Shown: piece by piece, positions 18,009 to 56,107 of the stretch
Layout: each line of letters begins with the position of its first letter
Numbering within the stretch: position 1 is the stretch's first letter
DNA from: Lacticaseibacillus paracasei subsp. paracasei
GTDB taxonomy: Bacteria > Bacillota > Bacilli > Lactobacillales > Lactobacillaceae
Assembly: GCF_000829035.1 (NCBI RefSeq)
Contig: NZ_AP012541.1
Span: forward strand, 1,054,001 to 1,118,000
Length of the DNA: 64,000 nucleotides
Direction of reading: 5' to 3'
Translations under genes and position numbers: made by a program
Notes under the pieces: generated by a model
Databases searched by the model: none
What the model was told of the DNA's origin: nothing
The model's input: the letters and a program-made list of their open reading frames with translations, nothing else

Positions 18009-18275
18009 TTATCCGTCTCCTTCCCAGTTCCGCGATTGCGTTTGGTGGAAGCCTCATCAGCTTTGCAAAGCAATCGCTATCACACGCTAATTCTAAAGCA
18101 CGGGTGAGGGAAAGACAACGATGACGACTTCAAAAAGCAAGTTATTTGCTTATGTTGGATAAAATTACTCTTGTTTTTGCTCGCTTCTATTCTTATTGGC
18201 CTTTACTTAACAGACTGTGACGTTGATAAAACCAAATTTCGCGAAAATGATCGACTTTGCTACAATGGAAAAAAA
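18009..18275. other. Gene-poor stretch upstream of the SPFH operon
   Basis: Short hydrophobic frames (around 18118-18240, for instance LLLFLLASILIGLYLTDC) resemble a broken small lipoprotein gene, with an ATG at 18120 whose frame stops after 13 codons. TACAAT near 18261 could be a -10 element for the GH25-like gene. Nothing firm is seen. Confidence 0.3.
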
Positions 18276-18394
18276 GAGCGTGAGCTGACCCGATTAGAAA
18301 CCGGCGTGTAAGCGGCGTCAAGCATGATGGCCGCACTTGGGGCCATTGCGCTTGAGGTCCTTACACGTAGATTTCTGGGTCCGCGATCGCGTTT
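18276..18394 (+). repeat. Structured repeat family B, copy B1
   Basis: This 119-bp long palindrome opens with GAGCGTGAGCTGACCC and closes with GGGTCCGCGATCGCGTTT. Inner paired blocks are AGAAACC/GATTTCT, GTGTAAG/CTTACAC and GTCAAGCATGATGGCC/GGCCATTGCGCTTGA. It lies head-to-tail with copy B2. Confidence 0.8.
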
Positions 18395-18399
18395 AAAAA

Positions 18400-18497
18400 G
18401 AGCGTGAGCTGGCGCGGGTAGCAACCGGAGCATAAGCGGCTTGGTCGTTGCTGCCAAGGTTCTTATGTGGAGGATGATGCGCCAGTGAAGGCGTTTA
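18400..18497 (+). repeat. Structured repeat family B, copy B2 (short apical stem)
   Basis: The copy is bounded by GAGCGTGAGCTGGCGC and GCGCCAGTGAAGGCGTTTA. Inner pairs are CATAAG/CTTATG and CTTGG/CCAAG, so the apical stem is shorter than in other full copies. It ends only three bases before the GAGGAGGGG ribosome site of the GH25-like gene. Confidence 0.75.
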
Positions 18498-18514
18498 TAC
18501 GAGGAGGGGACACT

Positions 18515-19252
18515 GTGCGCAGTCGGGTCATTTATGCTGATACCTATCGCAAACGTCATCAAAGACGCTTATTTTTGCTGGCCGTTTTAATCATCGCTTT
18601 GGGCGCACTGTTTGTTTGGTGGCATCAGCGCAACCCCCGCCCTGATCCGCAGACCTATCCCGTGTTGGGCGTGCGTCTTGACCAAACCGATGGGGTGCAG
18701 GATTTTGACAGTTTGCGCAGCAGCAAAGTCAGTTTTGTCTATCTCAAAGCGACTGAAGGCAGCAGCTATTTTGATGATAATTTTAATACGAATTTTAATC
18801 AGGCAGCTGGCAGTCGACTGAGCATCGGCATTTACCATGGGTTCAGCTTTGAAACGACACCCCAAGCCCAAGCTGCCCAATTCACGCGCCAAGTCGGCCA
18901 AAATATCGGTGATTTACCGATTGGCATTTACTTAAGCTATTACACTGAAAAGAAGCCAAGCACACAATGGCTGACAATTCAGTTACAAACTTTTGTCACA
19001 TTGGTGCAGCAACATTATCATCGCCAAGTGTTGCTGATGGGTAGCCCAAGTATTTTAAAAGCTGTCCAAAAAGTCGACCCGCAAGCACCACGCTGGGTTG
19101 TAAGCGACAAGAAGCCGACAACGAGCAGCGGTTTCTGGCAATATACGTCTGGCGCCCGGTTGCCGAATGGACCGCACGCAGATTACCGCGCTGCCGTATT
19201 TATGGGGGATCGGGCGGCCTTTTTAAAACTGTCTCAGCAGATAGTCAATTAA
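18515..19252 (+). CDS. GH25-like membrane-anchored protein lacking catalytic acids
   Basis: The 245-residue protein has a signal anchor (LFLLAVLIIALGALFVWW, about residues 18-35) and an extracellular GH25 lysozyme-like domain (VSFVYLKATEGSSYFDD, IGIYHGFSF, FWQYTSGARLPNG). In active GH25 enzymes the first strand has GxDxS and the fourth has DxE. Here those positions read GVRLD and IGIYLSYY, so by hand alignment all three catalytic acids are replaced. It is likely a pseudoenzyme or glycan binder. GTG 18515 follows GAGGAGGGG; tandem family B repeats form its leader. Confidence 0.72.
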   Translation: MRSRVIYADTYRKRHQRRLFLLAVLIIALGALFVWWHQRNPRPDPQTYPVLGVRLDQTDGVQDFDSLRSSKVSFVYLKATEGSSYFDDNFNTNFNQAAGSRLSIGIYHGFSFETTPQAQAAQFTRQVGQNIGDLPIGIYLSYYTEKKPSTQWLTIQLQTFVTLVQQHYHRQVLLMGSPSILKAVQKVDPQAPRWVVSDKKPTTSSGFWQYTSGARLPNGPHADYRAAVFMGDRAAFLKLSQQIVN

Positions 19253-19384
19253 CGTCAAACACGGGAATTGTCAGCTAATCATAATTTTTGTGGCTGTATA
19301 TGACAAAAGTGTTCGTTGATTGTTCGCGAAAAGCCATGTCAACCTTGACACCAATGCGGCATAATAGTTGCGAGGTGAAACTGG

Positions 19385-19741
19385 ATGAAGAAAGTTTTGA
19401 TCGGCCTTGTTGTGCTGATTGTGCTGGTATTTGGCGGCTTGAAAATTTTTGAAATCACAAATTATGGTGGCACGACTTATTACACGAAGATCACAAACGC
19501 TGGTCAACAGGCCACTGACCATGATCAAGATGGTAATAAATACACCATCTACGCCTACGACTTGCCTGGCTATGATGAAAAAGGCAGTTTGCAGCAGCTG
19601 AAGTTCAATGCTAATCAAGACCGACCACTTAAAATGAATGCTTATTTGAAAGTGATATACAATGATAAAAAAGGCGTCACTGATTGGCAGCGTGTCCCGC
19701 GAGCAGAGGTGCCAAAAGCGGCGCTGGCAAAGTTGGACTAG
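19385..19741 (+). CDS. YxeA family (DUF1093) small secreted/anchored protein
   Basis: This 118-residue protein has an N-terminal hydrophobic segment (VLIGLVVLIVLVFGGL). A compact domain follows (TYYTKITNAGQQATDHDQDGNKYTIYAYDLPGYDEKG, then LKMNAYLKVIYNDKKGVTDWQRV) typical of the YxeA family of unknown function. ATG 19385 follows GAGGTGAAA. It stands alone, followed by a bidirectional terminator. Confidence 0.82.
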   Translation: MKKVLIGLVVLIVLVFGGLKIFEITNYGGTTYYTKITNAGQQATDHDQDGNKYTIYAYDLPGYDEKGSLQQLKFNANQDRPLKMNAYLKVIYNDKKGVTDWQRVPRAEVPKAALAKLD

Positions 19742-19792
19742 TCAATAAGGTGCCAAAACGTTTCATAGACGTGAAGGTTAATTCAACTAAAT

Positions 19793-19834
19793 AAAAACGG
19801 CTGATTTTCCGTATTGGAAAATCAGCCGTTTTTT
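19793..19834. terminator. Bidirectional terminator after the YxeA gene
   Basis: AAAAACGGCTGATTTTCC (19793-19810) and GGAAAATCAGCCGTTTTT (19816-19833) form an 18-bp perfect stem with a 5-base loop. It serves the convergent yxeA-like and DUF4828 genes. Confidence 0.92.
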
Positions 19835-19873
19835 GATCGCTCGTAGATAACCCAGCAGAATTTACAGATGACA

Positions 19874-19923
19874 GTGCCAAGATTGAGCCACATCTAGCCA
19901 AAGATTACAGCGTTTGGCACGGC
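19874..19923. repeat. Degenerate remnant of repeat family A (A5)
   Basis: GTGCCAA (19874-19880) and TTTGGCACGGC (19913-19923) match the outer ends of copies A2 and A3. GATTGAGCCACATCTAGCC between them resembles the GCTGAGCCCCATCTGACC of A3. The inner hairpins are lost. Confidence 0.45.
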
Positions 19924-19952
19924 AAAAATCTGTTGATCAACTTCTGATGACT

Positions 19953-20309
19953 TTAAACACTCGGAACAATAATCGCATAAGTGGCATCTTCAGCCTCGTC
20001 GTAGATCGTTTGCGGACCATTATCGTCGGCCGTGATGACCAACTTATAGCCGTAATGGTCGAGAAAAGTCAGCTCATGGATGGTGATGCCGACGACTTGA
20101 CCGGGAAGCACTTTGTTGTCGATTGCGATCTGCAGTTGTGGCGAGATCGCCAGCGAGTGGGTCTTGTTGGTTTGCTCATCGAGAAATGCAAAATTCCCCG
20201 TAAAATTCTTCGCCAATGCCAATGCAGGATTGGCTGCCTTGGTTTGCGACTCCTGATGATGACCCCGATGCGCGAGTGCATGTTTCAGCCCGCGTAAAAA
20301 ACTCGCCAT
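19953..20309 (-). CDS. DUF4828 domain protein
   Basis: The 118-residue protein has a basic, His-rich N-terminus (LKHALAHRGHHQES) and a beta-rich domain (FTGNFAFLDEQTNKTHSLAISPQLQIAIDNKVLPG, then LVITADDNGPQTIYDEAEDATYAI). It looks like the lactobacillar DUF4828 family, function unknown. GGGAGGTCG precedes ATG. No membrane segment or signal peptide is seen. Confidence 0.7.
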   Translation of the reverse strand: MASFLRGLKHALAHRGHHQESQTKAANPALALAKNFTGNFAFLDEQTNKTHSLAISPQLQIAIDNKVLPGQVVGITIHELTFLDHYGYKLVITADDNGPQTIYDEAEDATYAIIVPSV

Positions 20310-20597
20310 GTTATTCGACCTCCCATTTTTTCATTACATTAAGTCTACCATGACTTTTTCCTTTAGTGATTACAGTGATGCTGTTTTTCTGTTACTGGGC
20401 TGTTACAATAATGGTAAGCGGTTCAGAGACTTGTCAAAAATACTTTGTTTTGAAAAGAATGACGGCACTGAATCGGGATAAGCGTGCGTGATGACGCTTG
20501 ATGATTGACCGTGTGAATTGAAGGCCGCCAGTTTATGAAGGCCACGGCTTAGGCGGTTTCGCGGTGTCTGGCATGTGCATCAGTACGTTAAAAAACA
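20310..20597. other. Intergenic leader between DUF4828 and oxidoreductase genes
   Basis: An extended -10 TGTTACAAT (20401-20409) points toward the oxidoreductase, giving a leader of about 240 bases. The leader holds imperfect inverted repeats (for instance GCCGCC near 20525 and GGCGGT near 20553). No protein gene is seen. Confidence 0.4.
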
Positions 20598-20636
20598 GAG
20601 CACGATTCAGCCAGTTTCTGAGCTGAATGGCGTGTC
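20598..20636 (+). repeat. Collapsed copy of repeat family B (B9)
   Basis: GAGCACGATTCAGCC, then GTTTCTGAGCTGAAT and GCGTGT, reproduce the two ends of family B (compare B4, GAATCAGCCC and GGGCTGATTC) with the central region deleted. It lies 18 bp before the oxidoreductase start. Confidence 0.5.
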
Positions 20637-20654
20637 TGAAAAGGGGGATTTGCC

Positions 20655-21608
20655 ATGTTAAAACTCGGTGTGATTGGAACAGGTTGGATCACCAAGCAAT
20701 TCGTGGCGGCAGCGATGGCGACGAAAGCTTATAAGCTCACCGCTGTTTATTCGCGACATCAGGAAAGCGCGCAATCATTTATTGACAGCACGGCACCAGC
20801 TACTGCTTATACGACGATGGATGCTTTTCTTGGCAGTGATATCGATGTTGTTTACATTGCCAGTCCAAATAGTTTGCATGCGTCTCAAGCGTTGGCAGCG
20901 TTAGACGCCGATAAGCATGTGATCGTGGAGAAACCATTGGTTGCCACGACCATGGAGTTTGAAAAGTTGGACGAAGCGTTGCGGAAGAAACCTTCTTTAT
21001 ATCTGTTTGAGGCAGCGCGTCACGTGTATGAACATAACTTTGAAGTCGTCAATGAATTCACCCACAGTCAACCGGTTGATGGGGCCACCTTAACGTATAT
21101 GAAGTATTCGTCAAAATACGATGCCTTTTTAGCTGGCAAGTTGCCGAATGTGTTTAATCCTGAATTTGCCGGCGGCGCTTTAATGGACCTCGGTATTTAC
21201 CTTGTATATGATGCGATTGCATGGTTTGGTGTACCGGAGAATGCCGTTTATTTGCCGCATTTTCTCAAAAGCGGGATTGACGGCGATGGCGTTGCTCGTC
21301 TCGACTATGGTAAGTTTGCGGTGACATTGATCACGGGTAAAACGACTAATAGCGAGTTGCCGTCAGAAATTTATTCTGGCAAGCAAACATTGATGATGGA
21401 CAACGCTGCTGAGCTGGAGACCGTTAAGCTCGGTGATCAAGTGCTGAGCACAGAAAAGTTGGCTAATCCGATGGAAGCTGAGGCAGCCTATTTTGCAAAA
21501 GCAATTGTCGGCAAGGACCGCAACGCTTTTGACAAGGCATGGCAGCTCGCCAAAGAGGTTCATCAGGTCATGTCAATTCTGCGGACCTCCGCAAATCTGG
21601 ATTTTTAG
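20655..21608 (+). CDS. Gfo/Idh/MocA family oxidoreductase
   Basis: This 317-residue NAD(P)-dependent sugar or polyol dehydrogenase of unknown substrate has a Rossmann start LGVIGTGWITKQFVAAAM. It continues with DVVYIASPNSLHASQA and the catalytic-lysine motif VEKPLVA (near residue 93). The C-terminal substrate domain includes GGALMDLGIYLVYDAIAWFG. AAGGGGGA precedes ATG 20655. Its stop lies 13 bp before the DEAD-box helicase start, so the two are probably co-transcribed. Confidence 0.88.
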   Translation: MLKLGVIGTGWITKQFVAAAMATKAYKLTAVYSRHQESAQSFIDSTAPATAYTTMDAFLGSDIDVVYIASPNSLHASQALAALDADKHVIVEKPLVATTMEFEKLDEALRKKPSLYLFEAARHVYEHNFEVVNEFTHSQPVDGATLTYMKYSSKYDAFLAGKLPNVFNPEFAGGALMDLGIYLVYDAIAWFGVPENAVYLPHFLKSGIDGDGVARLDYGKFAVTLITGKTTNSELPSEIYSGKQTLMMDNAAELETVKLGDQVLSTEKLANPMEAEAAYFAKAIVGKDRNAFDKAWQLAKEVHQVMSILRTSANLDF

Positions 21609-21621
21609 TGAGGACAATATT

Positions 21622-22908
21622 GTGACAATTGCAACCCCGTTCCAAAAACGCTGGCAAGCAGCCGGCTATACTGAACAGACGCCGATTCAAACCGCCGTGT
21701 ATCAACCGCTGAAAGCCGATGAAGATGTTGTTGGGCTTGCTCCAACAGGCTCAGGGAAAACATTAGCTTTTGGCTTACCACTACTTGAAAAAATGGTACC
21801 AGGCGATGGCTTACAACTCTTAATTTTGGCACCATCACAAGAGTTGGCGATTCAAACCCGTGATGTGCTCACACCTTACGCCAAAGATATTGGTATCACC
21901 GTGCAAGGCGTTATTGGCTCGGCGAATGTCAAACGTCAGCTTGATAGGCTAAAAGAAAAGCCAGAAGTCGTTGTTGCAACGGCGGGTCGCTTATTGGAAC
22001 TGATTCAGTCGCGTAAGTTGAAACTTGATGGGTTGCAAACGCTGGTCGTTGATGAAGCTGATGAAATGTTGCGTGATCCAGGATTTGATCAGGTTCGAGA
22101 GATTGCGGCAGCAGCACCCGCGGAAGCACAATTGGCCTTTTTCTCGGCCACGCCAAGTCCTTATTTTAAGGAGCTGCATAAGTGGTTTGGTAAAACACCA
22201 GACATCATTGATGTTCGGGCAATTGATCGAACCCGTGGCGAAGTCAGGCATCTGTTTTTGCAGACGGATCGGGCGCATCAGGTTGATTGGTTACGCACCT
22301 TAGCCCATACCGATGGCTTCAAAGCCTTGGTCTTCTTCAATCAAAATTCGTCCTTGGAACGCGTGGCGGGGATCTTGCGTCATCAGGCGGTTCGCTTTGC
22401 AGTCTTGTCACGCGAAGGCCGGCAAACGGTTCGACAGAAGGCATTGACTGATTTTCGGCGCGGACGAATCACGCTCTTGCTGGTGACCGATATGGCAGGG
22501 CGCGGATTGGATATTCCTAAGTTGCCGGCTGTGGTAAACTTTGAACCACCGAAGCGCGCGGAAGTTTACATTCATCGGGCTGGGCGGACTGGCCGGATGG
22601 GTGAAGCAGGTCTGGTTGTGACCTTGGGGGATGATCATGATCGCCGCGACCTCAGCAAGCTGGTACCGCAGTATCATATTCATCGCGGCTATATGTCTGA
22701 GGGCAAGCTTGTGGACACGCCGCCAGCTAAAAAAGTGTCCGAGGCGTCGGCACCAACGACGGTTGAAAAGCCTGCATCGCCAGTCGCCAAGCAGCAGCCA
22801 GTTAAGCCAGAAGTGGCGCAAGAACCAGCTGTTCGTCCGCGCCGCAAGCATAAGAAACATCGCCTGCGAGATCAGCGGAATAAAGGCAAGCACAAGGATA
22901 ACGCATAA
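21622..22908 (+). CDS. DEAD-box ATP-dependent RNA helicase
   Basis: This 428-residue helicase has the full motif set: Q-motif YTEQTPIQTAVY, I APTGSGKT, Ia PSQELA, II DEAD, III SAT, V TDMAGRGLD, VI HRAGRTGR. A basic tail (RPRRKHKKHRLRDQRNKGKH) should bind RNA. It probably acts in ribosome assembly or mRNA turnover, often linked to cold growth. GTG 21622 follows AGTGAGGA; an upstream ORF extension inside the oxidoreductase gene is rejected. Confidence 0.9.
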   Translation: MTIATPFQKRWQAAGYTEQTPIQTAVYQPLKADEDVVGLAPTGSGKTLAFGLPLLEKMVPGDGLQLLILAPSQELAIQTRDVLTPYAKDIGITVQGVIGSANVKRQLDRLKEKPEVVVATAGRLLELIQSRKLKLDGLQTLVVDEADEMLRDPGFDQVREIAAAAPAEAQLAFFSATPSPYFKELHKWFGKTPDIIDVRAIDRTRGEVRHLFLQTDRAHQVDWLRTLAHTDGFKALVFFNQNSSLERVAGILRHQAVRFAVLSREGRQTVRQKALTDFRRGRITLLLVTDMAGRGLDIPKLPAVVNFEPPKRAEVYIHRAGRTGRMGEAGLVVTLGDDHDRRDLSKLVPQYHIHRGYMSEGKLVDTPPAKKVSEASAPTTVEKPASPVAKQQPVKPEVAQEPAVRPRRKHKKHRLRDQRNKGKHKDNA

Positions 22909-22946
22909 TGCAGCATCAGATGTATGATGAAGATAAGGGGGCAGTC

Positions 22947-23276
22947 ATGGTGAGTATGAAGGCAGAACAAATGGCTGCCATGATGACATTGATGAGCGCT
23001 GCCGGTGATGCGGAAAATGCAACCATGACGGCGATTGACGAAGCCAAGGCCGGCCATGCTGAGCGCAGCCGTAAGCTGTTGAAGCAGGCAGATGCCAAGT
23101 TGAAGCAAGCTCATCAAGCTCAGACCCAGATGCTGACGTATGAAGCACGAGGCGAAAAAGTTGACGTGACATTATTGATGGTGCACAGTCAGGATCATCT
23201 AATGAGTGCGATGACCATTCGCCGGCTTGCCGATGAGATTATTGATCTTTATCAGCAAGTGCAGGCGCGTAAATAA
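22947..23276 (+). CDS. PTS lactose/cellobiose-type EIIA component (orphan)
   Basis: This 109-residue IIA protein carries the phosphorylatable His in LLMVHSQDHLMSAM (near residue 81) and the three-helix pattern of the lactose/chitobiose class. ATG 22947 follows AAGGGGG by 5 bases. No IIB or IIC gene lies next to it; instead it follows a helicase and precedes DUF3284. It could serve a PTS elsewhere or be regulatory. Confidence 0.88.
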   Translation: MVSMKAEQMAAMMTLMSAAGDAENATMTAIDEAKAGHAERSRKLLKQADAKLKQAHQAQTQMLTYEARGEKVDVTLLMVHSQDHLMSAMTIRRLADEIIDLYQQVQARK

Positions 23277-23289
23277 CGGCTGGCACAGC

Positions 23290-23312
23290 GCGGTTGACGT
23301 GCCTGCAACCGC
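23290..23312. repeat. Small hairpin between IIA and DUF3284 genes
   Basis: GCGGTTG (23290-23296) pairs with CAACCGC (23306-23312). The surrounding GAGCGCGTTATTG (minus strand) resembles the ends of collapsed family B copies, but the match is weak. Confidence 0.3.
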
Positions 23313-23349
23313 GGCAATAACGCGCTCGCAATCAAGAGAGGTAATCCCC

Positions 23350-23772
23350 ATGAAAATCGAAAAAACATTACAGACACCAGCAGCTTTTTTATATAGCAAG
23401 ATTATTGCGCCCGTACAAGCTGATATTGCGGCGGCTAACAATCAACAGGTTGCGGCGGCAGAACTCGGTGGTTATGCTTATCGCAAGCAATTTCCAGATG
23501 GCGAGTGGGCCAAAGTTAAGGTTACTAAGAATGTGATTGATCGTGAATTTGCGATGTTGACTATCACCCGTTTCTCGCGGTTCAAGGTCCGGTACCTGAT
23601 CACGCCGTTAAATGCCAATGCCAGCCAAGTCCGCGTCAGTGAAACCGTGCAGCCGGTTAACTGGGCGGCGCAATTGAAGCAAATGGTGACCGAATTATTG
23701 GTCGGCAACAAACGCCGCCGTAATTACGGCCGGATGTTAGATTCGATTGAGCGGTCGTATATGACGGCTTAG
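23350..23772 (+). CDS. DUF3284 domain protein
   Basis: This 140-residue protein (MKIEKTLQTPAAFLYSKII, then FSRFKVRYLITPLNANASQVRVSETVQP) matches the DUF3284 family, a START/Bet-v1-like fold often found beside lactose/cellobiose PTS genes. Here it follows the orphan IIA by 73 bp. AGAGAGGTAA precedes ATG 23350. Function unknown; the pairing suggests a role with that PTS class. Confidence 0.75.
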   Translation: MKIEKTLQTPAAFLYSKIIAPVQADIAAANNQQVAAAELGGYAYRKQFPDGEWAKVKVTKNVIDREFAMLTITRFSRFKVRYLITPLNANASQVRVSETVQPVNWAAQLKQMVTELLVGNKRRRNYGRMLDSIERSYMTA

Positions 23773-23864
23773 GCGTTGTTCGCTGCATGCTGAACACTTT
23801 ATAGTCAATATTTGCAAATGAATTTGAATTGCCCTGTGGCTTTTGGCATAATTGACTTTGTCTG

Positions 23865-23938
<74 letters not shown>

Positions 23939-23943
23939 GTACG

Positions 23944-23972
23944 AAGCACAGTCTTGATGGCTGTGCTTTTTT
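23944..23972 (+). terminator. Intrinsic terminator after tRNA-Arg
   Basis: AAGCACAG (23944-23951) pairs with CTGTGCTT (23961-23968) and T follows. It sits 5 bp after the tRNA. Confidence 0.85.
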
Positions 23973-24069
23973 GGAAATCACATTGCACATTCTAAAAAGT
24001 CTTAAAGATTAAAAATGAGTGCAATCGCATTTTTGCGGTAGCTGGATTTGTCTAAAAGGAGATTACGCG

Positions 24070-24792
24070 ATGCAAGCCTTCACAGCCGTTTATTTGCCGG
24101 GCTGGTTGATTTTCATTGGCGGTATGTTGATCATTAGCAGTGTGAATGCAGCGACGGTGCAAGCCATGGTGAATCGGGCCGGGCGTTCGAATACGCAGCT
24201 CTGGTATATGAAACCGGGTATTTTTGTGCACGAGCTGTTGCACGCGGTTGTTGCGCGGCTCTTCGGATTACAAGTGACTAACTTTTCCATGCGAGCTGAT
24301 GTGGTTAGCGGCAGCGCAGCACATGTCAGTCTGCGGTACAATCGGCGCTCGCCTTGGGCACAACTGGGATTATTTCTGTCCAGCAGTGCACCTGTCTGGG
24401 GCATCAGTACCGTGTTGCTGGTCATGGGGCGATGGGCCTTTTTTCCGACAGATGGCCGGCTTTGGCCAGTCTTAACTGCTGCCACGAGTCTGAATGAAAA
24501 ATGGCTCGCGATGCGCGGCTTGATTCAGATCAACTGGGTTTGGTTTGTGGCTTTTATCGTCACTGCCTTGGTGCTGACGCCAGGCATTGCGCTTTCAGCT
24601 CAGGATCTGCGCAACATGTGGCGGAGTGCCCCGATCGTGTTCTTGCTGACAATCGTGATTTTTTATGTTTTTTTGACGTTTTGGCCAGCTGGATTTGCTT
24701 GGTGGTCGCTGTTGAACTTGAATGTGTTATTGTTAGATGCGATTATGCTGCTTTTCAGTATCTTGATTTGGTTACTGGCAAGCATTTTGTGA
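24070..24792 (+). CDS. Polytopic membrane protein with HELLH zinc-protease motif
   Basis: The 240-residue protein has about five or six hydrophobic segments. The motif FVHELLHAVVARLFG (HExxH, near residue 53) lies at the end of the second segment, as in site-2-type intramembrane metalloproteases, followed by SSSAPVWGIS. A clear partner Asp motif is not obvious, so it could be an M50-like protease or a related non-peptidase. AAAAGGAG precedes ATG 24070. Confidence 0.6.
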   Translation: MQAFTAVYLPGWLIFIGGMLIISSVNAATVQAMVNRAGRSNTQLWYMKPGIFVHELLHAVVARLFGLQVTNFSMRADVVSGSAAHVSLRYNRRSPWAQLGLFLSSSAPVWGISTVLLVMGRWAFFPTDGRLWPVLTAATSLNEKWLAMRGLIQINWVWFVAFIVTALVLTPGIALSAQDLRNMWRSAPIVFLLTIVIFYVFLTFWPAGFAWWSLLNLNVLLLDAIMLLFSILIWLLASIL

Positions 24793-24877
24793 ATGAATGT
24801 TGACAAGTGAGAGGGCAAATGTGCCCGATGTCATAATCTATAAGTGAAGCCTTTTGTTCTTTAGTAGGGGGAAGACG

Positions 24878-26656: not shown

Positions 26657-26672
26657 ATGGCTAGTGTCGATC

Positions 26673-26734
26673 AAAAAAGGTCGTGATCGCGTCTTTCCCG
26701 TTTTGAAGCGGGGGGATGCGGTCACGGCCTTTTT
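26673..26734 (+). terminator. Terminator after recQ
   Basis: AAAAAAGGTCGTGATCGC (26673-26690) pairs with GCGGTCACGGCCTTTTT (26718-26734), with a T-tract on the plus strand. Confidence 0.75.
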
Positions 26735-26748
26735 AGCTTTTTACCAGG

Positions 26749-26784
26749 TTTTCTCCGCCACTTTGGTTTATTTGGCGGAGAAAA
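26749..26784 (-). terminator. Hairpin downstream of pepS
   Basis: TTTTCTCCGCCA (26749-26760) and TGGCGGAGAAAA (26773-26784) form a 12-bp perfect stem 26 bp beyond the pepS stop. GGCGGAGAAAA is repeated once more at 26795-26805. A T-tract lies within the stem rather than after it. Confidence 0.55.
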
Positions 26785-26809
26785 GACAATTTACGGCGGA
26801 GAAAAATAC

Positions 26810-28045
26810 CTAAGCCCAGTCACCATTGCGGAAAATCGGAACGACGGTGCCATCGGCCTTGATGCCGTCAATATTCATGTCAGCTGAGCCCATCATGAAA
26901 TCAACGTGCGTGTTACTTTGGTTGAGGCCAGCCGCGGTGCGTTGGTCGGTGGTCTTGGCAACGCCGTCTTTGACGGAGAATGGATAAGCTTGTCCGAGCG
27001 CCATGTGATCAGAGGCGTTCTCGTCATATAACGTGTTGAAGAAAATCAAGCCGGATTGGGAAATCGGGGATGGATCAGGGACCAGCGACACTTCACCAAG
27101 CGAGCGGGCGCCGGGGATCTTTAGCAGGTTTTGTAATACCGCATCTCCACGATCAGCATGGGCATCGACGACTTGACCGTTTTTAAAGGTAAAATGCATC
27201 CCCTCAAGGATATTCCCGGAGTAACTTAGCGGTTTAGTGGAGGCAACTGTACCATCAATGCGGCGGAAATCCGGCGCCGTGAAGACTTCCTCAGTCGGCA
27301 TGTTGGCCATGAATTCCTCACCGCGCGGATTATAGGCACCAGCGCCTTTCCAAATATGGTGCTTGGGCAGACCGACAACCAAATCAGTACCCGGCGCGAC
27401 ATAATGAAGCCGATCGAACTGCTCAGCATTCAGCCAGTCCGCTTTTGTTCGCAATTGTTGATCATGGGCTTTCCAAGCAGCTTCCGGATCAGGCTGATCA
27501 ATTCGGGTGGTTTTGAAAATGGCCGTCCAGAGTTTATCAGTCGCTTCTTCCGGGGTCTCGGCATCAGGAAAAACTTTTTCGGCCCATTTTGGACTTGCAG
27601 CGCCGATGATGGTCCAGCTAATCTTCATTGAGCTGATTGCGTCCATTAGGCGGGCGTAGGCTTGATTGAAGGCATTTTGATAGTTAGCGATGCGTTGTGG
27701 ATCCAGTCCTGCAAGGTTGTCAGGATCGGCAGAGATCACAGTAATCCGTTTGGCATTGTGATCGACCCAGTAATCAAACTGACCCTTAATGAAATCGGGG
27801 ATGTTGTACAGGCGGGATGTTGCCATGTGGGCCATGTCCAACCGCTTGATCAGATCATCGTGCCACTGAACTTGCACTTCAGCGGCACCACGGTCATAAG
27901 CCGCAGCCACAATCAACTGCGCAAGTTTGGCCTGATCCACGGCAATCTGCAAATAAACCGTGTCACCGGGTTTCACGGCGACGCCAATATCAACCGCGAG
28001 CTCTGCATATTGTTTGAGGCTTTTGTCAAAGTTAGGTAATGTCAT
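26810..28045 (-). CDS. pepS: Aminopeptidase PepS (M29 family)
   Basis: This 411-residue cytosolic metallo-aminopeptidase of the thermophilic aminopeptidase family contributes to peptide use. Family segments include LAVDIGVAVKPGDTVYL, DLVVGLPKHHIWKGAGAYNPRGEEFMANMPTEE and GDAVLQNLLKIPGARSLGEVSLV, with metal-binding Glu/His in the second half. The start at 28045 follows GGAGGG; an in-frame extension of 38 residues upstream lacks a site. It diverges from the tetR-like gene. Confidence 0.9.
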   Translation of the reverse strand: MTLPNFDKSLKQYAELAVDIGVAVKPGDTVYLQIAVDQAKLAQLIVAAAYDRGAAEVQVQWHDDLIKRLDMAHMATSRLYNIPDFIKGQFDYWVDHNAKRITVISADPDNLAGLDPQRIANYQNAFNQAYARLMDAISSMKISWTIIGAASPKWAEKVFPDAETPEEATDKLWTAIFKTTRIDQPDPEAAWKAHDQQLRTKADWLNAEQFDRLHYVAPGTDLVVGLPKHHIWKGAGAYNPRGEEFMANMPTEEVFTAPDFRRIDGTVASTKPLSYSGNILEGMHFTFKNGQVVDAHADRGDAVLQNLLKIPGARSLGEVSLVPDPSPISQSGLIFFNTLYDENASDHMALGQAYPFSVKDGVAKTTDQRTAAGLNQSNTHVDFMMGSADMNIDGIKADGTVVPIFRNGDWA

Positions 28046-28216
28046 CTTTCGTTCCCTCCAAATCCGTCGTTGGCAATAGTCTACCATAGCAGTCATCATC
28101 AGGTGCTCAACAGTTCTAAAAAACGTCCGGGCTTTATGTTCAAATAAATGACACCACAAAGCATGGCGTTCTCTTTAAAAAATACTTCGAAAAAAATTAA
28201 GAAAACCGTCAATTTG

Positions 28217-28256
28217 TTTGCAAATAGTGTTTCTTTCTGGTATGAGGTCTGGTAAA
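28217..28256 (+). promoter_or_regulatory. Possible promoter for the TetR gene
   Basis: A TAAAAT element near 28252 has TTTCTT 17 bases upstream, a weak match, within the 324-bp divergent gap between pepS and tetR. No clear operator palindrome is seen there. Confidence 0.3.
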
Positions 28257-28369
28257 ATAACAGCATAACATCTAGATTGCCTTTTGGAGTGGAGGCGTAT
28301 CCAAAGATGTTTGTAAATGAGTTGTGTGCAAGCTAGTTTTAAATAACTAAAGAAAGCAAGGGGAACATT

Positions 28370-28978
28370 ATGGCACGAAAGAAAACAATTACGCATGATC
28401 AGATTCTCAATGCGGCGTATGACCTTGTTGTGGAACAAGGCTTCAAGAGTTTCACAGCGCGGAATATCGCCAAAAAGATGAACTGCTCAACACAGCCAAT
28501 TTATTTAGAATTCAAAAACATGGCTGAGCTGAAACAGGCTGTCATGGATCGAATTAAAGAACTACTTTCACTGAAAATGGCAAAGCATTTTACCAACGAT
28601 CCAGTCGTTGATTTGGGGCTTGCTTATATCAATTTTGCACTTGAAAATCGGCCATTGTATCGCGCCGTTTTTGTGGAAGATCACTTCGGTGTTGATGAAA
28701 TGCGCGAATATGCGATGAGCACCGCAATGCGCGTATTCGATTCTTACGAACCAGCACAGCACTTGAACGAAGCGCAGTTGCGCAACACGATCTGCGGGGT
28801 ATGGATCGTTGCAACGGGGATCGCCAATTTAATGGCACCAGGCTTCATTGATATTACACGAGATCAAATGGTTGATATTCTAACGGCTGTGACGCAAGAC
28901 TTCATTGTTAACGGCCGCTTCTCAGACGACCCGCGCATCTCTTGGTTTCAAGACGCCAAGATCGCTCAGGGATACTAA
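28370..28978 (+). CDS. TetR/AcrR family transcriptional regulator
   Basis: The 202-residue protein has an N-terminal HTH (ITHDQILNAAYDLVVEQGFKSFTARNIAKKMNCSTQPIYLEFKNMAELKQAVM) and an alpha-helical ligand domain. AGCAAGGGGA precedes ATG 28370. No obvious target gene lies next to it; the divergent pepS is a possible target by position only. A terminator follows at 29004. Confidence 0.9.
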   Translation: MARKKTITHDQILNAAYDLVVEQGFKSFTARNIAKKMNCSTQPIYLEFKNMAELKQAVMDRIKELLSLKMAKHFTNDPVVDLGLAYINFALENRPLYRAVFVEDHFGVDEMREYAMSTAMRVFDSYEPAQHLNEAQLRNTICGVWIVATGIANLMAPGFIDITRDQMVDILTAVTQDFIVNGRFSDDPRISWFQDAKIAQGY

Positions 28979-29003
28979 CGATCATTAATAGCAAATTGGG
29001 GAT

Positions 29004-29031
29004 AACCGTTCCGATGTGGAGCGGTTTTTTT
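29004..29031 (+). terminator. Terminator after the TetR gene
   Basis: AACCGTTCC (29004-29012) pairs with GGAGCGGTT (29018-29026) and five or more T follow. It abuts family B copy B3. Confidence 0.8.
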
Positions 29032-29032
29032 A

Positions 29033-29153
29033 GAGCGTGAGCTGGCCCGGGTAGAAACCGGAACATAAGTGGCCTCAAGGCTAAATGGCTGGGTTTTGGC
29101 CATTTAGCCTTGAGGTCCTTATGTGTAGGTTTCTGGGCCAGCGAACGCGTTTA
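29033..29153 (+). repeat. Structured repeat family B, copy B3 (full)
   Basis: The 121-bp copy runs from GAGCGTGAGCTGGCCC to GGGCCAGCGAACGCGTTTA. Inner pairs are AGAAACC/GGTTTCT, ACATAAG/CTTATGT and CCTCAAGGCTAAATGGC/GCCATTTAGCCTTGAGG. Almost the whole element is one hairpin. Confidence 0.85.
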
Positions 29154-29202
29154 AAGGCGAATGCTTTTTCAACGACAATGAGTCCCACCGGTTAACAAAG
29201 AC

Positions 29203-29251
29203 GGCAACAGTGCAAACCCTGACCTTGGGCCAAACACTGCTGCCGCCTTTT
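29203..29251 (+). terminator. Terminator-like hairpin upstream of DUF2252 gene
   Basis: GGCAACAGTG (29203-29212) pairs with CACTGCTGCC (29235-29244) with one mismatch, followed by GCCTTTT. It is about 120 bp before the DUF2252 start and could be a leader attenuator or an orphan terminator. Confidence 0.45.
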
Positions 29252-29368
29252 ACATAGTTTCCACTTCACCGAATCACTGGAAAACCATCTCACAATGCGC
29301 TACTTTAAAACTAACGATGTTGTCTACCGTCTCACAAGACAACACAGAAAACCACAAGGGAGCTTATT

Positions 29369-30742
29369 ATGGGAAGTTCATCAGACCTAAAAGACCTATT
29401 ACGCGAACGAATCGCCGCTAAATATACCATTGACGATTTAAAAGATACCGGGAAAAAGATTCGTAAAACCGCACCAATTGAAAGTCTGGCTGCCGTCAGT
29501 AAGATTGATCGGGACCCCGTCCAGTTCATTAATAGTGTCGAACAAAACTTAACCAAATCACTGTTGCCTATGCGTCATAGTCGCATGGGCGCTTCGCAGG
29601 CAGCTTTTTTTCGCGGCACTGCTGAGTTGATGGCCTATGACTTGCAGCAAGGGGAGAAGTCTGGCATCAATCTGTTAATTGATGGTGACGCTCACTTACA
29701 GAATTTCGGTTTCTACGCATCGCCAGAACGCAACCTGCTTTTTGACCTCAACGACTTCGATGAAGCGCAGATCAACAGCTTTGAGTTTGACATCAAGCGT
29801 TTGCTGACAAGTGTTTATTTGTTAGGCGACCAACAAGGCTTTGATGCAAATAAATTAGATGAATTGGTACAGACTGATGCATCGATTTATCGTAAAACCT
29901 TACGGGATCTTTTCAAGGTTGGTGCATTGGATCGTTTTTATCAGTCCACCGAAGTCAACCATCTTGTGCAGGCGATCCCCGGCGCTGAAGATTCGGCGTT
30001 GCTGTCGAAATTTGTGAAAAAGGCGACGAAGCGTAATAATGACTCGGTAATCAAAAAATACACCACAACTATCGATGGTAACATGCGGTTTAAAGACGAT
30101 CCGCCAAGCTCCGTCAGGTTGGATAAAACGACTTATCAGGCGATCTTTGACGGCTTTACCCAGTATCGTAAGTCCACGCGGCCGGATATTTTGGTGCTAC
30201 TGAGCGAATATCGGATTACGGACATCATTCATCACAGCGTGGGTATCGGCAGCTTTGGCACGAATTGCTATCTCGTTTTGCTAAGCGGATTAGGTGGCAG
30301 CCATCTTGTGCTGCAAGTCAAAGAAGCCTTGCCGCCGCGACCTGAATTAATTCCAAATACGGAACGCATCACGTTACAACAAGAAGTCAGTCAGGGACAG
30401 CGGATCATCGCATCCCAGATGATTTTGCAGAAAGCCTCTGATCCATTCCTCGGCTGGTTTAACGTAGGCGATAAAAGCTATTATGTCCGCCAGTTCCGTG
30501 ATATGAAGGGGTCTGTGGATCTTGAGGAACTGACTTTCCCCGAGTTTCAGTACTACACCCAGATCACCACGTATCTATTGGCAATGGCACACGCTCAGAC
30601 GCCTCAGGCTGCAGTGGTTACCGGCTATCTCGATAAAAGTTTTGACAGCGCCGTTCAGCGTTGGAGCAAATGGTATCTGAATCAGGTAAAAGCGGATTAT
30701 TCAGCCTTTATGCGGGCAGTTCAGACGCACATGCTGGCCTGA
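29369..30742 (+). CDS. DUF2252 protein, kinase-like fold suspected
   Basis: The 457-residue protein matches the DUF2252 family (COG4320), function unknown. GDAHLQNFGFY (near residue 106) followed by LLFDLNDFDEA resembles the catalytic HGDxxxxN and metal-binding D motifs of aminoglycoside-phosphotransferase-like kinases. The N-terminal LPMRHSRMGASQAAFFRGTA and late MILQKASDPFLGW and YYVRQFRDMKG are family-conserved stretches. AAGGGAGC precedes ATG 29369. No membrane segment is seen; it is monocistronic. Confidence 0.8.
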   Translation: MGSSSDLKDLLRERIAAKYTIDDLKDTGKKIRKTAPIESLAAVSKIDRDPVQFINSVEQNLTKSLLPMRHSRMGASQAAFFRGTAELMAYDLQQGEKSGINLLIDGDAHLQNFGFYASPERNLLFDLNDFDEAQINSFEFDIKRLLTSVYLLGDQQGFDANKLDELVQTDASIYRKTLRDLFKVGALDRFYQSTEVNHLVQAIPGAEDSALLSKFVKKATKRNNDSVIKKYTTTIDGNMRFKDDPPSSVRLDKTTYQAIFDGFTQYRKSTRPDILVLLSEYRITDIIHHSVGIGSFGTNCYLVLLSGLGGSHLVLQVKEALPPRPELIPNTERITLQQEVSQGQRIIASQMILQKASDPFLGWFNVGDKSYYVRQFRDMKGSVDLEELTFPEFQYYTQITTYLLAMAHAQTPQAAVVTGYLDKSFDSAVQRWSKWYLNQVKADYSAFMRAVQTHMLA

Positions 30743-30752
30743 GCCATCTTGG

Positions 30753-30777
30753 AACTGATTGACAGATCAGATTTTTC
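30753..30777 (+). terminator. Weak terminator after the DUF2252 gene
   Basis: CTGAT and ATCAG flank TGACAG and are followed by a TTTTTCTT run. The stem is only five bp. Confidence 0.4.
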
Positions 30778-30876
30778 TTGTCCTGATGACGCTCACTCTG
30801 GCAAAATAAAGTTAAGACGCTAATCACCTAACTTAATGACATGCCTGAAGAGCAGGGCGTCACAGAAAGGATGCAA

Positions 30877-31890
30877 GTGATTATGGCTCGCAAACAACAT
30901 CAAAAAAAGCCGCCGCTGCTTTCCGCCGAACAAGAAGTCGCGATTCAATCCGGGCGTGCAGCATTGGCAGATTTGGCGTTGCCACGCCGCACCAAAATGC
31001 GGGTGTTTGTTAAACTTGCCATCAATCGGATCACCGAATCGAACATCGGCCAAAGTGCTGCTGCCTTGGCGTACTATACCTTGCTGTCCTTATTCCCATT
31101 GATTTTGTTTGTCGCCAATGCATTGCCTTATTTTGGCTTAACATACAAAGGCCTTGCTGCCTATTTGACACAGGCAATCCCATCCAATGTCATGAATTGG
31201 TTGGACCCAGTGATCGCCAATCTGTTGGATTCCAGCAGTGGCGGTTTGCTGGGAATTGGGGCGGTTGCGACTTTGTGGGCGGCCAGTTTAGGCGTGAATG
31301 GTTTGAAAATGGGCTTCAATCAAATTTACGGCGTCGAGTCATCGCAAAATTTTATTATTCAACGCTTATTATCGATGCTCATGACCTTCACACTCATCAT
31401 TGTGATGGGCGCCATTCTGATTGTTTTCGCATTTGGCCGCCAGTTTCTGGAATGGCTGATCCCACTGCTTCGTCTCAACGATGACTGGCTGCGAACATTT
31501 AATACCCTACGTTGGCCAGTGACGATTACGGCGCTTTTTGTCATTATTATGTTTTTAAATTATTTTCTGCCGAACGTCAAAATCCGGATGTGGACAGTCT
31601 TACCAGGCACCGCCTTTACGGTCGCCGGTTGGCTGTTAATTGCCCAGGCGTTTTCCTTATACATGAAATATTTTGGGACACGCTATCTGTCCTATGGCAC
31701 GATAGGCACCTTCATCGCGATCATGTTATGGCTTAACTTCTCCGCACTGGTGCTGTTGTGGGGCGCCGTCATCAATGCACTCACCGCTGAGTATTTCATT
31801 GGCCGACTGCATGGCAGTAAAGGCAAAGTGCATGATTTCGTCAAACGTCGCGTGCGGACACCACACGAAGAAAAAGAAGCGAAAAGCTAG
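30877..31890 (+). CDS. YihY/BrkB family membrane protein
   Basis: The 337-residue protein has six predicted helices: N-terminal family motif NIGQSAAALAYYTLLSLFPLILFVANALPYFG, then LLGIGAVATLWAASLGVNGLKMGFNQIYGVE, and late YGTIGTFIAIMLWLNFSALVLLWGAVINALTAEY. The family was once called RNase BN but is a membrane protein of unclear role. GTG 30877 is favoured because AAAGG lies about 6 bases upstream; ATG 30871 and ATG 30883 are alternatives. Confidence 0.88.
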   Translation: MIMARKQHQKKPPLLSAEQEVAIQSGRAALADLALPRRTKMRVFVKLAINRITESNIGQSAAALAYYTLLSLFPLILFVANALPYFGLTYKGLAAYLTQAIPSNVMNWLDPVIANLLDSSSGGLLGIGAVATLWAASLGVNGLKMGFNQIYGVESSQNFIIQRLLSMLMTFTLIIVMGAILIVFAFGRQFLEWLIPLLRLNDDWLRTFNTLRWPVTITALFVIIMFLNYFLPNVKIRMWTVLPGTAFTVAGWLLIAQAFSLYMKYFGTRYLSYGTIGTFIAIMLWLNFSALVLLWGAVINALTAEYFIGRLHGSKGKVHDFVKRRVRTPHEEKEAKS

Positions 31891-31923
31891 TCATTGAGTG
31901 AGCAACCATGGCTGAGAGCAGCA

Positions 31924-31964
31924 AAAAAGGACTTGCGTTCATCTGAGAGCGCAAGTCCTTTTGC
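31924..31964. terminator. Bidirectional terminator between YihY and flavodoxin genes
   Basis: AAAAGGACTTGCG (31925-31937) pairs with CGCAAGTCCTTTT (31950-31962). Both strands carry a terminal T-run. Confidence 0.9.
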
Positions 31965-31975
31965 TTTAAACGGTT

Positions 31976-32437
31976 TTATTGCAATGCCTGATACTTTTCA
32001 ACAAGTTGTTTGGTAAAGGCCTCTAGGTGCTTAATATCGTCTTCTTCAGGGGCGAGATCGATCTTAACGTCTTCTGCACCCTTCGTGGCTCCGGTCTTGG
32101 CAAAAGCCTTGTCAAAGTCGTCTACTGAAGTGGCAAAGTCATCATAGAAGCGATCACCGCTGCCGCAGCAACCGTAGACCTTACCTTTAAGATCGAGTTC
32201 TTGCAACTCTTCATAGAAGTCAACGGCTTCATCAGGCAACTCGCCATCACCGACATCTGAATAGGTGTAAGTCGCGGTGACACAAATATCGACATCTTCA
32301 AAATCGCTGGCCAGCGCTTGAGAAACTTCCGTTGTCGTCACGTCCACCCCTAAGTCCTCAAAAGCTTCTTCAATAATACCAGCGATATCCTCGTTGTTGC
32401 CGGTCAAACTGGCATATACAATCCTTGCGCTTGCCAT
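31976..32437 (-). CDS. Flavodoxin
   Basis: This 153-residue FMN electron carrier has the phosphate loop YASLTGNNEDIA (residues about 7-18). Flavin-ring loops are ATYTYSDVGDGELPD and GCCGSGDRFYDDFATSVDDF. It is very acidic, as usual for the family. The start at 32437 follows AGGAGGAAT by 10-12 bases; an upstream extension of 53 residues in the same frame lacks family character. Confidence 0.93.
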   Translation of the reverse strand: MASARIVYASLTGNNEDIAGIIEEAFEDLGVDVTTTEVSQALASDFEDVDICVTATYTYSDVGDGELPDEAVDFYEELQELDLKGKVYGCCGSGDRFYDDFATSVDDFDKAFAKTGATKGAEDVKIDLAPEEDDIKHLEAFTKQLVEKYQALQ

Positions 32438-32687
32438 TTTTCTCTTATTCCTCCTAAAACACAGCGCTCGGGGGCTTACACGTCGGCGAGGCTGCCTTTT
32501 CTTGTTCATTTGCCTGATTATAGCATAGGGGACACGACTCTGGGGATGTGAATCGAAAAGGCCAAAGATCCCTGATGTCATAGCCGACACCGACACTGTT
32601 TAACCAACCATTCTCAGACTTCTGTTGTTTATCCCTGATTAATGCTACACTAATTGCGAGCTAAACTTGTATTGGAGGCAGAAAAGC

Positions 32688-33512
32688 TTGATCACGATCA
32701 AATCAGCACGAGAAATTAAAGGCATGGCAAAGTCCGGTGCCATTTTGGCAGGTATGCACCTTGGCCTGCGCGATATTATCAAACCAGGCATCTCAAGCTG
32801 GGAAATTGAAAAGTTCGCCAAAGAATTCTTTGAATCTCATGGCGCCAAGGCCGAACAAGTCGGTTTTGAAGGTTATAAGTATGTGACTTGTGTCAGCATC
32901 AACGATGAAGTTGCGCATGCGGTTCCGCGTAAGGGCCTGAAACTCAAAGATGGCGATGTTGTCAGTGTTGACACGGTTGTCAGCTGGAATGGCTACTTCA
33001 GCGATTCTTGCTGGACGTACGGCGTTGGCAAGGTGTCAGAAGCTGACCAGAAGCTGATGGACGTTACCAAAAAGTCCCTGTACTTAGGGATTGATGAAGC
33101 AGTTGTTGGCAATCGGATCGGTGACATTGGCGCTGCTATTCAGACTTACACCGAAGATGATAACGGCTACGGCGATGTCCGTGAGCTTATTGGCCACGGC
33201 ATTCAGCCAACCATGCACGAAAGTCCTAATGTGCCGCATTATGGCGTGCCAGGTCATGGTTTACGACTAAAAGCCGGCATGACCATTACGATCGAGCCGA
33301 TGATCACTGAAGGTACTTGGAAGATCAAGGGTAAACAAGTCCCAGGCGATACTTGGGAATACTACGTCACTGCTGACGGCAGCAAGTGTGCCCAGTACGA
33401 GCACACGCTGGTCATCACAGATAACGGCCCGAAGATTTTGACTTCTCAAGGCGATGCCATTGACGAGAAGTACAAGTTAACCAAGGCCGATCTTAAAACA
33501 CTTCCTGAATAA
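32688..33512 (+). CDS. map: Type I methionine aminopeptidase
   Basis: This 274-residue cytosolic metalloenzyme removes N-terminal Met from new proteins. Ligands are visible as Asp in VSVDTVVSWNGYFSDSCW (two Asp), His in LIGHGIQPTMHE, Glu in ITIEPMI and Glu in QYEHTLVI. TTG 32688 follows TTGGAGG; the earlier frame opening has no site. A lysine-rich ending is slightly longer than in E. coli. It is monocistronic with a terminator downstream. Confidence 0.94.
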   Translation: MITIKSAREIKGMAKSGAILAGMHLGLRDIIKPGISSWEIEKFAKEFFESHGAKAEQVGFEGYKYVTCVSINDEVAHAVPRKGLKLKDGDVVSVDTVVSWNGYFSDSCWTYGVGKVSEADQKLMDVTKKSLYLGIDEAVVGNRIGDIGAAIQTYTEDDNGYGDVRELIGHGIQPTMHESPNVPHYGVPGHGLRLKAGMTITIEPMITEGTWKIKGKQVPGDTWEYYVTADGSKCAQYEHTLVITDNGPKILTSQGDAIDEKYKLTKADLKTLPE

Positions 33513-33550
33513 GAGCGGCCAACGCGATCATTCAGAAACAATAGGGCACG

Positions 33551-33589
33551 AAAAAACGGGGTGGCGATGACGATTGCTCACCCCGTTTT
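33551..33589 (+). terminator. Terminator after map
   Basis: AAAACGGGGTG (33553-33563) pairs with CACCCCGTTTT (33579-33589). Family B copy B4 begins seven bases later. Confidence 0.85.
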
Positions 33590-33595
33590 GTATGT

Positions 33596-33713
33596 GAGCG
33601 CGAATCAGCCCGGTTAGAAACCGGAGTGTAAGTGGCCTTGATCGTGATGGTCGGGCTTTGACCATTGCGATCAAGGTCCTTACACGCAGGTTTCTGGGCT
33701 GATTCGCGCGTTA
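33596..33713 (+). repeat. Structured repeat family B, copy B4 (full)
   Basis: This 118-bp palindrome runs from GAGCGCGAATCAGCCC to GGGCTGATTCGCGCGTTA. Inner pairs are AGAAACC/GGTTTCT, GTGTAAG/CTTACAC and CCTTGATCGTGATGGTC/GACCATTGCGATCAAGG. The outer and apical arms differ from B3 but pairing is preserved. Confidence 0.85.
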
Positions 33714-34852: not shown

Positions 34853-34972
34853 TGAGGGACAAACGCACTCACAGCCGCAGCAATATTTCGCATGAGTGAC
34901 CTCAGCGTTCAATGACTAAGACACAGTCGCTAAGCGCTGAGGCAACTTACGCTTTTGTTTCTAAGCGACTCG

Positions 34973-35015
34973 CACAAAAAAAGCCGCCACTCACGTGTTT
35001 TGCGAGTGGCGGCTT
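34973..35015 (-). terminator. Terminator of the DUF1659-DUF2922 operon
   Basis: AAGCCGCCACTC (34981-34992) and GAGTGGCGGCTT (35004-35015) form a perfect 12-bp stem. On the minus strand seven or more T follow. Confidence 0.88.
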
Positions 35016-42717: not shown

Positions 42718-46100
<3,383 letters not shown>

Positions 46101-56007: not shown

Positions 56008-56067
56008 GGACTAGGGGAGATACTTGACTGGAATAGAACTGAAGAGAAACGTCGTTTGCATTGCAAA

Positions 56068-56107
56068 AACGCGTTCGCAGGTTTCTAATCGCGCCTGCTC
56101 ACGCTCT
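56068..56107 (-). repeat. Collapsed copy of repeat family B (B6)
   Basis: On the minus strand it reads GAGCGTGAGCAGGCGCGATT, AGAAACCTGCGAACGCGTT. These are the two ends of family B joined with the central 80 bp absent. It lies just before the cspA promoter. Confidence 0.6.

Follow-up and report, generated by a model that had tools for sequence, protein, structure and literature searches.

Dispersed interrupted hairpins with covarying arms in Lacticaseibacillus paracasei and related genera: candidate non-autonomous mobile elements

The 64,000-nucleotide stretch of the Lacticaseibacillus paracasei subsp. paracasei genome analysed here (contig NZ_AP012541.1, positions 1,054,001 to 1,118,000, termed the window below) carries several copies of a hairpin element of about 115-130 bases, a family whose two arms change together from copy to copy. 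We propose, with no more than moderate confidence, that these hairpins are a family of non-autonomous mobile elements that spread via recognition of one folded strand, either DNA or RNA and most likely the +. The initial annotation of the window had attributed the matched changes in the arms to selection or to a copying mechanism acting for the fold itself; this is supported by the data presented below, which point to both causes acting together.

A blastn search with one copy returned 62 matches in the genome from which the window was taken (hereafter the source genome), while a covariance model built from 56 copies (R1) scored at least 150, each spanning the whole model; this count is a lower bound, and a few of the copies overlap or are decayed. 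The matches total 17,900 bases (0.59% of the genome), with 74 copies on the + strand and 76 on the - strand, and correspond to 118 loci: 91 single, 22 double and 5 triple. All 32 neighbouring pairs less than 400 bases apart share the same orientation, head-to-tail, the two copies being separated by 3-6 bases in 29 cases, by none in one case and overlapping by 21 bases in two. We searched a family sample of 301 Lactobacillaceae genomes from 40 genera (source genome included) with strict filters that lose weak matches and at most 11 candidates scored per genome, so that the resulting counts are floors: matches were found in 77 genomes and 20 genera, Lentilactobacillus, Secundilactobacillus and Paucilactobacillus being among the carriers. 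In a sample of the whole order, matches were obtained in 19 of 295 genomes, seven of them outside Lactobacillaceae, namely four members of a single genus (4-9 matches per genome), one with a weak match (E 5e-6), one whose match is the plasmid-operon copy described below, and one more. Copies are also present in 18 plasmid records, with Pediococcus, Lactiplantibacillus and Lacticaseibacillus among the named carriers. A nearly identical copy was found in a copper operon (copY/P-type ATPase) of 8 genomes belonging to six genera; at least 80% of a 3.1-kb stretch including this copy is present in 49 plasmid records. We conclude that this operon carries its hairpin copy along and that copies ride on plasmids. 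No copies were found in phage records, and pattern searches of viral contigs gave 0, 1 and 0 matches, the single one not being a model hit.

The full copies of the window form a single long interrupted hairpin on the + strand, and the same architecture was found across genera. It can be followed on the 121-nt subtype A copy at 29032..29152 (+), which with 141.2 bits is the best-scoring of the 150 copies scored in the source genome and lies just after a terminator-like T-run (judged by eye). With positions L1-L37 running along the 5' arm and R1-R36 over the final 36 bases, the fold begins with stem P1 (L3-6/R28-31; 29035..29038 paired with 29145-29148), followed by a GA/GA internal loop (29039..29040 opposite 29143-29144), by the variable stem P2 (L9-16/R18-25; 29041..29048 with 29135-29142) and by a four-base bulge on the 5' side (L17-20), generally GNTT and in this copy GGGT (29049..29052). 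Stem P3, AGAAACC/GGTTTCT (L21-27/R11-17; 29053..29059 with 29128-29134), then leads through an internal loop of the GGA/GCA type (29060..29062 opposite 29125-29127) to stem P4, RYRTAAG (L31-37/R1-7; 29063..29069 with 29118-29124), and to an apical stem-loop, P5 (29071..29117), variable in both sequence and length. Conservation was measured on the 119 source-genome copies with strict anchors, the 31 of 150 lacking them being left out, and on 16 cross-genus copies, 7 of 23 having been dropped because their right arm was not 36 bases long. The GA/GA loop is kept in 90/119 and 13/16 of these copies respectively, the second loop, of a type flanked by G.A and A.G, in 104/119 and the GNTT bulge likewise in 104/119; in about 19 of the 119, P2 contains an extra tandem G.A pair in place of two Watson-Crick pairs. 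Copies are mostly 117-123 bases long and start with (A)GAGYG, and most casei-group copies have a GC content of 0.48-0.66. The 5' end was found to lie one base further out than originally annotated, the base before GAGCG (before L1) pairing with the second-last base, R35; over the 118 loci this outer pair is A-T at 88, T-A at 26 and other at 4. Two end classes can be distinguished: in class I (90 loci) GAGCG is preceded by A and TTT lies near the end, and in class II (28 loci) GAGCG is mostly preceded by GT, with TTA towards the end.

Besides the copy described above, the window contains a head-to-tail doublet, made of a full copy at 18275..18394 (+, 102.3 bits) and a shortened one at 18399..18496 (+, 62.8 bits), and a 119-nt subtype B copy of the TTAT 3' end class at 33595..33713 (+, 126.9 bits), preceded by a terminator-like hairpin with TTTT (by eye). 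The RNA minimum free energies of segments 18276-18394, 29033-29153 and 33596-33713 are -66.5, -81.8 and -83.5 kcal/mol, with z-scores of -6.9, -11.1 and -13.2 and 0/200 shuffles as stable. A common fold had been claimed for four copies and holds for these three; the segment 18400-18497, taken initially for a shorter but complete copy, adopts a different best fold on its own; its third stem reads, by eye, AGCAACC/GGATGAT, two arms that do not pair, and it is a shortened, decayed copy. The matched changes that first drew attention to the family, GCTGGCCC/GGGCCAGC versus ATCAGCCC/GGGCTGAT in the outer arms and ACATAAG/CTTATGT versus GTGTAAG/CTTACAC in the third stem, are indeed present.

Covariation was measured on 106 non-redundant source-genome copies, drawn from the 118 of at least 110 bases among the 119 anchored ones. 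Ranked by strength, the first 15 of the 2,862 left/right column pairs all coincide with predicted base pairs, and for 20 of the 35 varying predicted pairs at most 1 in 1,000 permutations was as strong, a level reached by 4 of 118 background pairs. The linkage statistic G was 76-135 within the six pairs checked and 0.1-20 between different stems of the same arm; because linkage along an arm is weak compared with linkage within pairs, common descent is not the cause of the covariation. An alignment of 56 source-genome sequences has 95.6% of its cells paired versus 85.7% when shuffled (0/500), with 25 of 47 pairs changed on both sides and a covariation score of 0.362, compared with 0.169 for shuffled and at most 0.091 for slid alignments. 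For 36 distinct sequences among 37 copies hand-picked across many genera, nearly all of them found with R1, which favours well-paired copies, 94.3% of cells are paired versus 68.9% when shuffled, 22 of 26 pairs have changed on both sides, and the score is 0.693 (shuffled 0.184, slid at most 0.137). The covariance test, designated beforehand as a possible refutation of the initial reading, thus did not refute it: covariation is strong and far above chance.

The sense of the fold was addressed by comparing the two strands. In all 11 comparisons, as RNA and as DNA alike, the + strand folds at a lower energy than the - strand, and only one strand has purine-rich conserved loops. The L31-R7 pair is a G.U wobble in 54 of 119 source-genome copies and in 13 of 16 cross-genus copies, and over all pairs G.U outnumbers A.C by 120:48 in the source genome and by 19:1 across genera. 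The purine loops, the L31-R7 pair and the energies make it likely that one strand, the +, is the one that folds. Of the forms initially proposed, RNA or a DNA cruciform, a strand-symmetric cruciform therefore seems less likely than the folding of one strand, which may be DNA or RNA.

A folded + strand might also act where it lies, as a cis-acting RNA affecting processing, stability or attenuation of the messenger, with selection gene by gene keeping the fold. We consider this unlikely, although several features of the genomic context besides the strand energies agree with it. Context was available for 80 of the 118 loci and orientation was judged by long stop-free frames rather than by gene calls: 39 loci are sense and 18 antisense to both flanking frames (p 0.008), and at 13 of the 80 a ribosome-binding-site-like motif and a start codon lie directly downstream. 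Two copies, both checked with Rfam, are located a few bases 3' of the 23S rRNA gene and before the 5S rRNA gene (822166-822284 and 2608763-2608881), therefore within rRNA operons, and a third, at 261825-261943, has the same flanks. However, where both flanking frames point the same way (57 loci), the copy is antisense at 18, and in class II antisense loci (11) outnumber sense ones (8); among 523 neighbouring frames of at least 90 amino acids (loci of up to 4 kb, near-identical ones removed beforehand), no protein is shared by more than four genomes; and the deletions, chimeras and copy-number changes seen between sister species fit gene-by-gene selection poorly. A coding role as a C-terminal tail was also considered, the frame GAG CGT ... 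TAA being open in many copies (by eye), but upstream frames enter it at only some loci and the idea was rejected.

The retention of unpaired loops and of the bulge in most copies points to selection on a shape: the arms are not merely perfected palindromes, since the GA/GA and GGA/GCA loops and the GNTT bulge mostly stay unpaired. Among 39 independent pairs of close copies we counted 62 matched double changes (43 transitions and 19 transversions), where about 4.7 would be expected if the two sides were independent, together with 5 other doubles and 128 one-sided changes. Because the matched doubles exceed expectation, copying from arm to arm contributes as well, and both arms seem to change in single steps. 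The GA/GA loop has been made perfectly complementary in 15 of 119 copies and in both directions (GA/TC in 6, TC/GA in 5 and AA/TT in 4), and the copy at 1461052-1461172 has an inverted apical loop, as if the tip of the hairpin had flipped (by eye). The matched changes are most simply attributed to template switching within the hairpin; exchange of whole hairpins between copies could also produce them. At matching places of two sister genomes compared with each other (G005 and G010), where matched changes are visible by eye, the element has diverged more than its flanks in two of the three pairs examined (79.8% identity versus 92.0/84.5% for the two flanks, and 83.2% versus 89.6/99.3%) and about as much in the third (97.5% versus 97.6/95.9%), and conversion from another copy may be behind these differences. 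It is quite unlikely that the whole pattern is mutational, template switching correcting long palindromes arm to arm and making selection on the fold unnecessary. The excess of matched doubles, the 19 transversions, which cannot pass through G.U, the complementary GA/GA loops and the inverted tip all suit such a process, but it should erase the loops and the bulge, which persist at the frequencies given above, GA/GA across genera included, and it leaves both the copy number and the conserved ends unaccounted for. That the hairpins are host DNA sites (for recombination, the nucleoid or replication) that are bound in duplex or cruciform form and spread by ordinary recombination is very unlikely, for although they are long, sometimes tandem, significantly folded on both strands and distributed fairly evenly over the chromosome (6-14 loci in each 250 kb), 224 of the 301 family genomes, among them at least 6 of the same genus, have no match under filters that lose weak ones, the loops are conserved as purines on one strand only, and the replication-direction bias is weak (65 loci with and 53 against, assuming the origin at base 1 and the terminus at 1.5 Mb).

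If the hairpins are mobile elements read as a folded strand, an enzyme supplied in trans would recognise the loops, the bulge and the ends and would insert copies, often just after terminator T-runs, next to purine-rich ribosome-binding sites or next to a resident copy. A run of at least five T occurs within 14 bases upstream at 30 of 118 loci (14 of 90 in class I, 16 of 28 in class II) and within 14 bases downstream at none, and purine-rich sequence follows class I loci. Only copies of the right shape would multiply, so that the shape would be kept while the letters of the stems drift, and template switching during replication of the hairpin would copy one arm onto the other, changing both sides in one step. 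Resident copies would then degrade through deletions and through crossing-over of one tandem copy with another. A more specific version of this scheme is possible but rather doubtful: a class of Lactobacillales mobile elements read by shape, in which the GA/GA loops and the GNTT bulge would be recognised instead of sequence, insertion would be head-to-tail beside T-runs or the element's own copies, the putative enzyme acting in trans would be neither a Y1 transposase nor a reverse transcriptase, and template switching would account for part of the matching between arms.

Gain and loss were examined in G005, G010 and another genome, G169. Fifteen G005 loci fall in the compared stretches and 11 could be placed in G010, where 8 are occupied, 1 is not and 2 are unclear; many insertions are thus old, since most placeable loci are occupied in both genomes. 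A number of results weigh against the proposed mobility as a folded single strand. Nine differing places were compared between the three genomes and none showed a clean fresh insertion: by eye, five look like internal deletions leaving the ends of the element, one looks like a crossing-over of tandem copies, one is a change in copy number and two allow more than one reading. Among these two is the most promising candidate for an insertion (G169, L094:15845): it is flanked on either side by TTAG, present once at that place in G005 and G010, but a deletion might account for this too. Over the 118 loci, no consistent target duplication was detected, and no longer element with both ends scoring well was found in 1.19 Mb, several weak distant pairs being left unexamined. 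Two candidate helpers were rejected: the Y1 transposase domain Y1_Tnp (PF01797) is absent from the source genome and present in 27 of the 77 positive genomes compared with 93 of all 301 (p 0.39), and the reverse transcriptase domain RVT_1 is likewise absent from the source genome and present in 22 of the 77 (p 0.55). As regards the strand, z-scores against shuffles are more extreme for the + strand in only 6 of 11 comparisons, both strands folding significantly, and without the L31-R7 pair the excess of G.U over A.C is weak (66:47, p 0.09, in the source genome; 6:1, p 0.13, across genera). Finally, class I loci are 31 sense to 7 antisense, as a role in RNA would predict too.

In the apparent crossing-over of tandem copies, the left arm of one copy is joined to the right arm of the other and pairing is broken (by eye). 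The source-genome locus at 2913424 aligns as the left part of copy 1 plus copy 2 of the L. paracasei plasmid pWX3. Of six L. paracasei plasmid records that seemed empty, the two inspected (H48 and H53) hold a deleted remnant. On the - strand of the window we found a diverged copy at 34860..34977 (48.3 bits), whose matching place also holds copies in G005, G010 and a further genome, G088, and two deletion remnants, at 44178..44242 (41.1 bits, E 1e-7) and, shorter, at 56066..56106 (27.4 bits, E 3.7e-4). Elsewhere in the source genome, part of a copy is tandemly duplicated with overlap at 247680-247998, with a period of about 99 bases. Around 1891324-1891822 (525-1023 of locus L033), copies alternate in a composite array with a different repeat that starts with AGCTAGCACAGTATCAGTTACGGCCGCCAGTCG and may represent a second repeat family. 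Around 1288644-1288762 (445-563 of locus L009), a different hairpin with a similar tip adjoins a doublet and may belong to the other hairpin family noted in the initial annotation or be a distant subtype.

This is an abundant element without an Rfam entry in food-related bacteria, found in at least 20 of the 40 family genera sampled. About 150 paralogous copies in one genome offer a natural experiment in which selection on shape can be separated from copying between the arms of a palindrome, two causes of covariation that are easily confounded. Expansion of arrays, formation of chimeras and deletion at the copies vary between sister species and between plasmids. Should a mobilising enzyme be found, it could turn out to be a structure-specific mobile system unlike the known Y1, attC and intron types.

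The initial annotation did not recognise the family and named a match to an already described one as its second possible refutation; in Rfam none was obtained, the copies matching no entry at its gathering score. The window yields only a tRNA at that score and no intron hit, and a search over seven loci gave six hits at E ≤ 0.1, all below gathering, the two that overlap copies being to microRNA hairpin models. Searches of an open-licence library listed no title on this hairpin family, and it is not described in the excerpts of PMC1590033, PMC3733652, PMC2817692 and PMC10969869 that were consulted. Like the repetitive extragenic palindromes (REP) and bacterial interspersed mosaic elements (BIME) associated with RAYT transposases (PMC2817692, PMC3733652), the hairpins are intergenic, imperfectly palindromic, present in more than 100 copies per genome and presumably moved in trans. 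They differ in length (about 120 bases versus 20-40) and in lacking the GTAG/CGTC terminal tag of REP. They form no alternating arrays, all 32 close pairs having the same orientation, although this is a weak criterion given that head-tail dimers also occur among REPs (PMC3733652). They further differ in that Y1_Tnp is missing from the source genome and does not co-occur with them over the 301 genomes. ERIC, BOX, RUP, Efa-1, Sta-1 and similar repeats measure about 60-165 bases, most are labelled intergenic and many have a predicted stem-loop (PMC2267715). ERIC resembles the present family in folding as a single long stem-loop, unlike Efa-1 (163 bases), which is reported as two adjacent stem-loops (PMC2267715). 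All these repeats are set apart here by description only: in our family most stem letters vary between copies and genera while the loops persist. The one lactobacillus named in the excerpted part of that survey of stem-loop repeats in 40 genomes is L. johnsonii, with a coding repeat (PMC2267715).

Bacterial miniature inverted-repeat transposable elements (MITEs) are also small, gene-less, intergenic inverted repeats that form stem-loops in transcripts (PMC10969869); they are typically AT-rich (PMC10969869), unlike most casei-group copies with the GC content given above. For the hairpins, neither a consistent target duplication at the 118 loci nor a parental insertion sequence in the 1.19 Mb searched was found. 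The attC sites of integrons act as a single-stranded hairpin in which shape, unpaired bases and strand outweigh sequence and the terminal structure is variable. Our hairpins would by analogy resemble attC sites in these traits; however, no gene cassettes were noticed and no core-site boxes were seen by eye, the integron integrase itself not having been searched for. Group IIC introns integrate immediately downstream of terminator hairpins, but the present elements are hairpins of 120 bases, the window has no Rfam intron hit, and RVT_1 is absent from the source genome. The family shares traits with REP, MITE and attC elements, fails the defining tests of REP and could not be tied to MITE or attC. 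We file it as new among the small dispersed hairpin repeats, the comparison with ERIC, BOX, RUP and Efa-1 being one of description.

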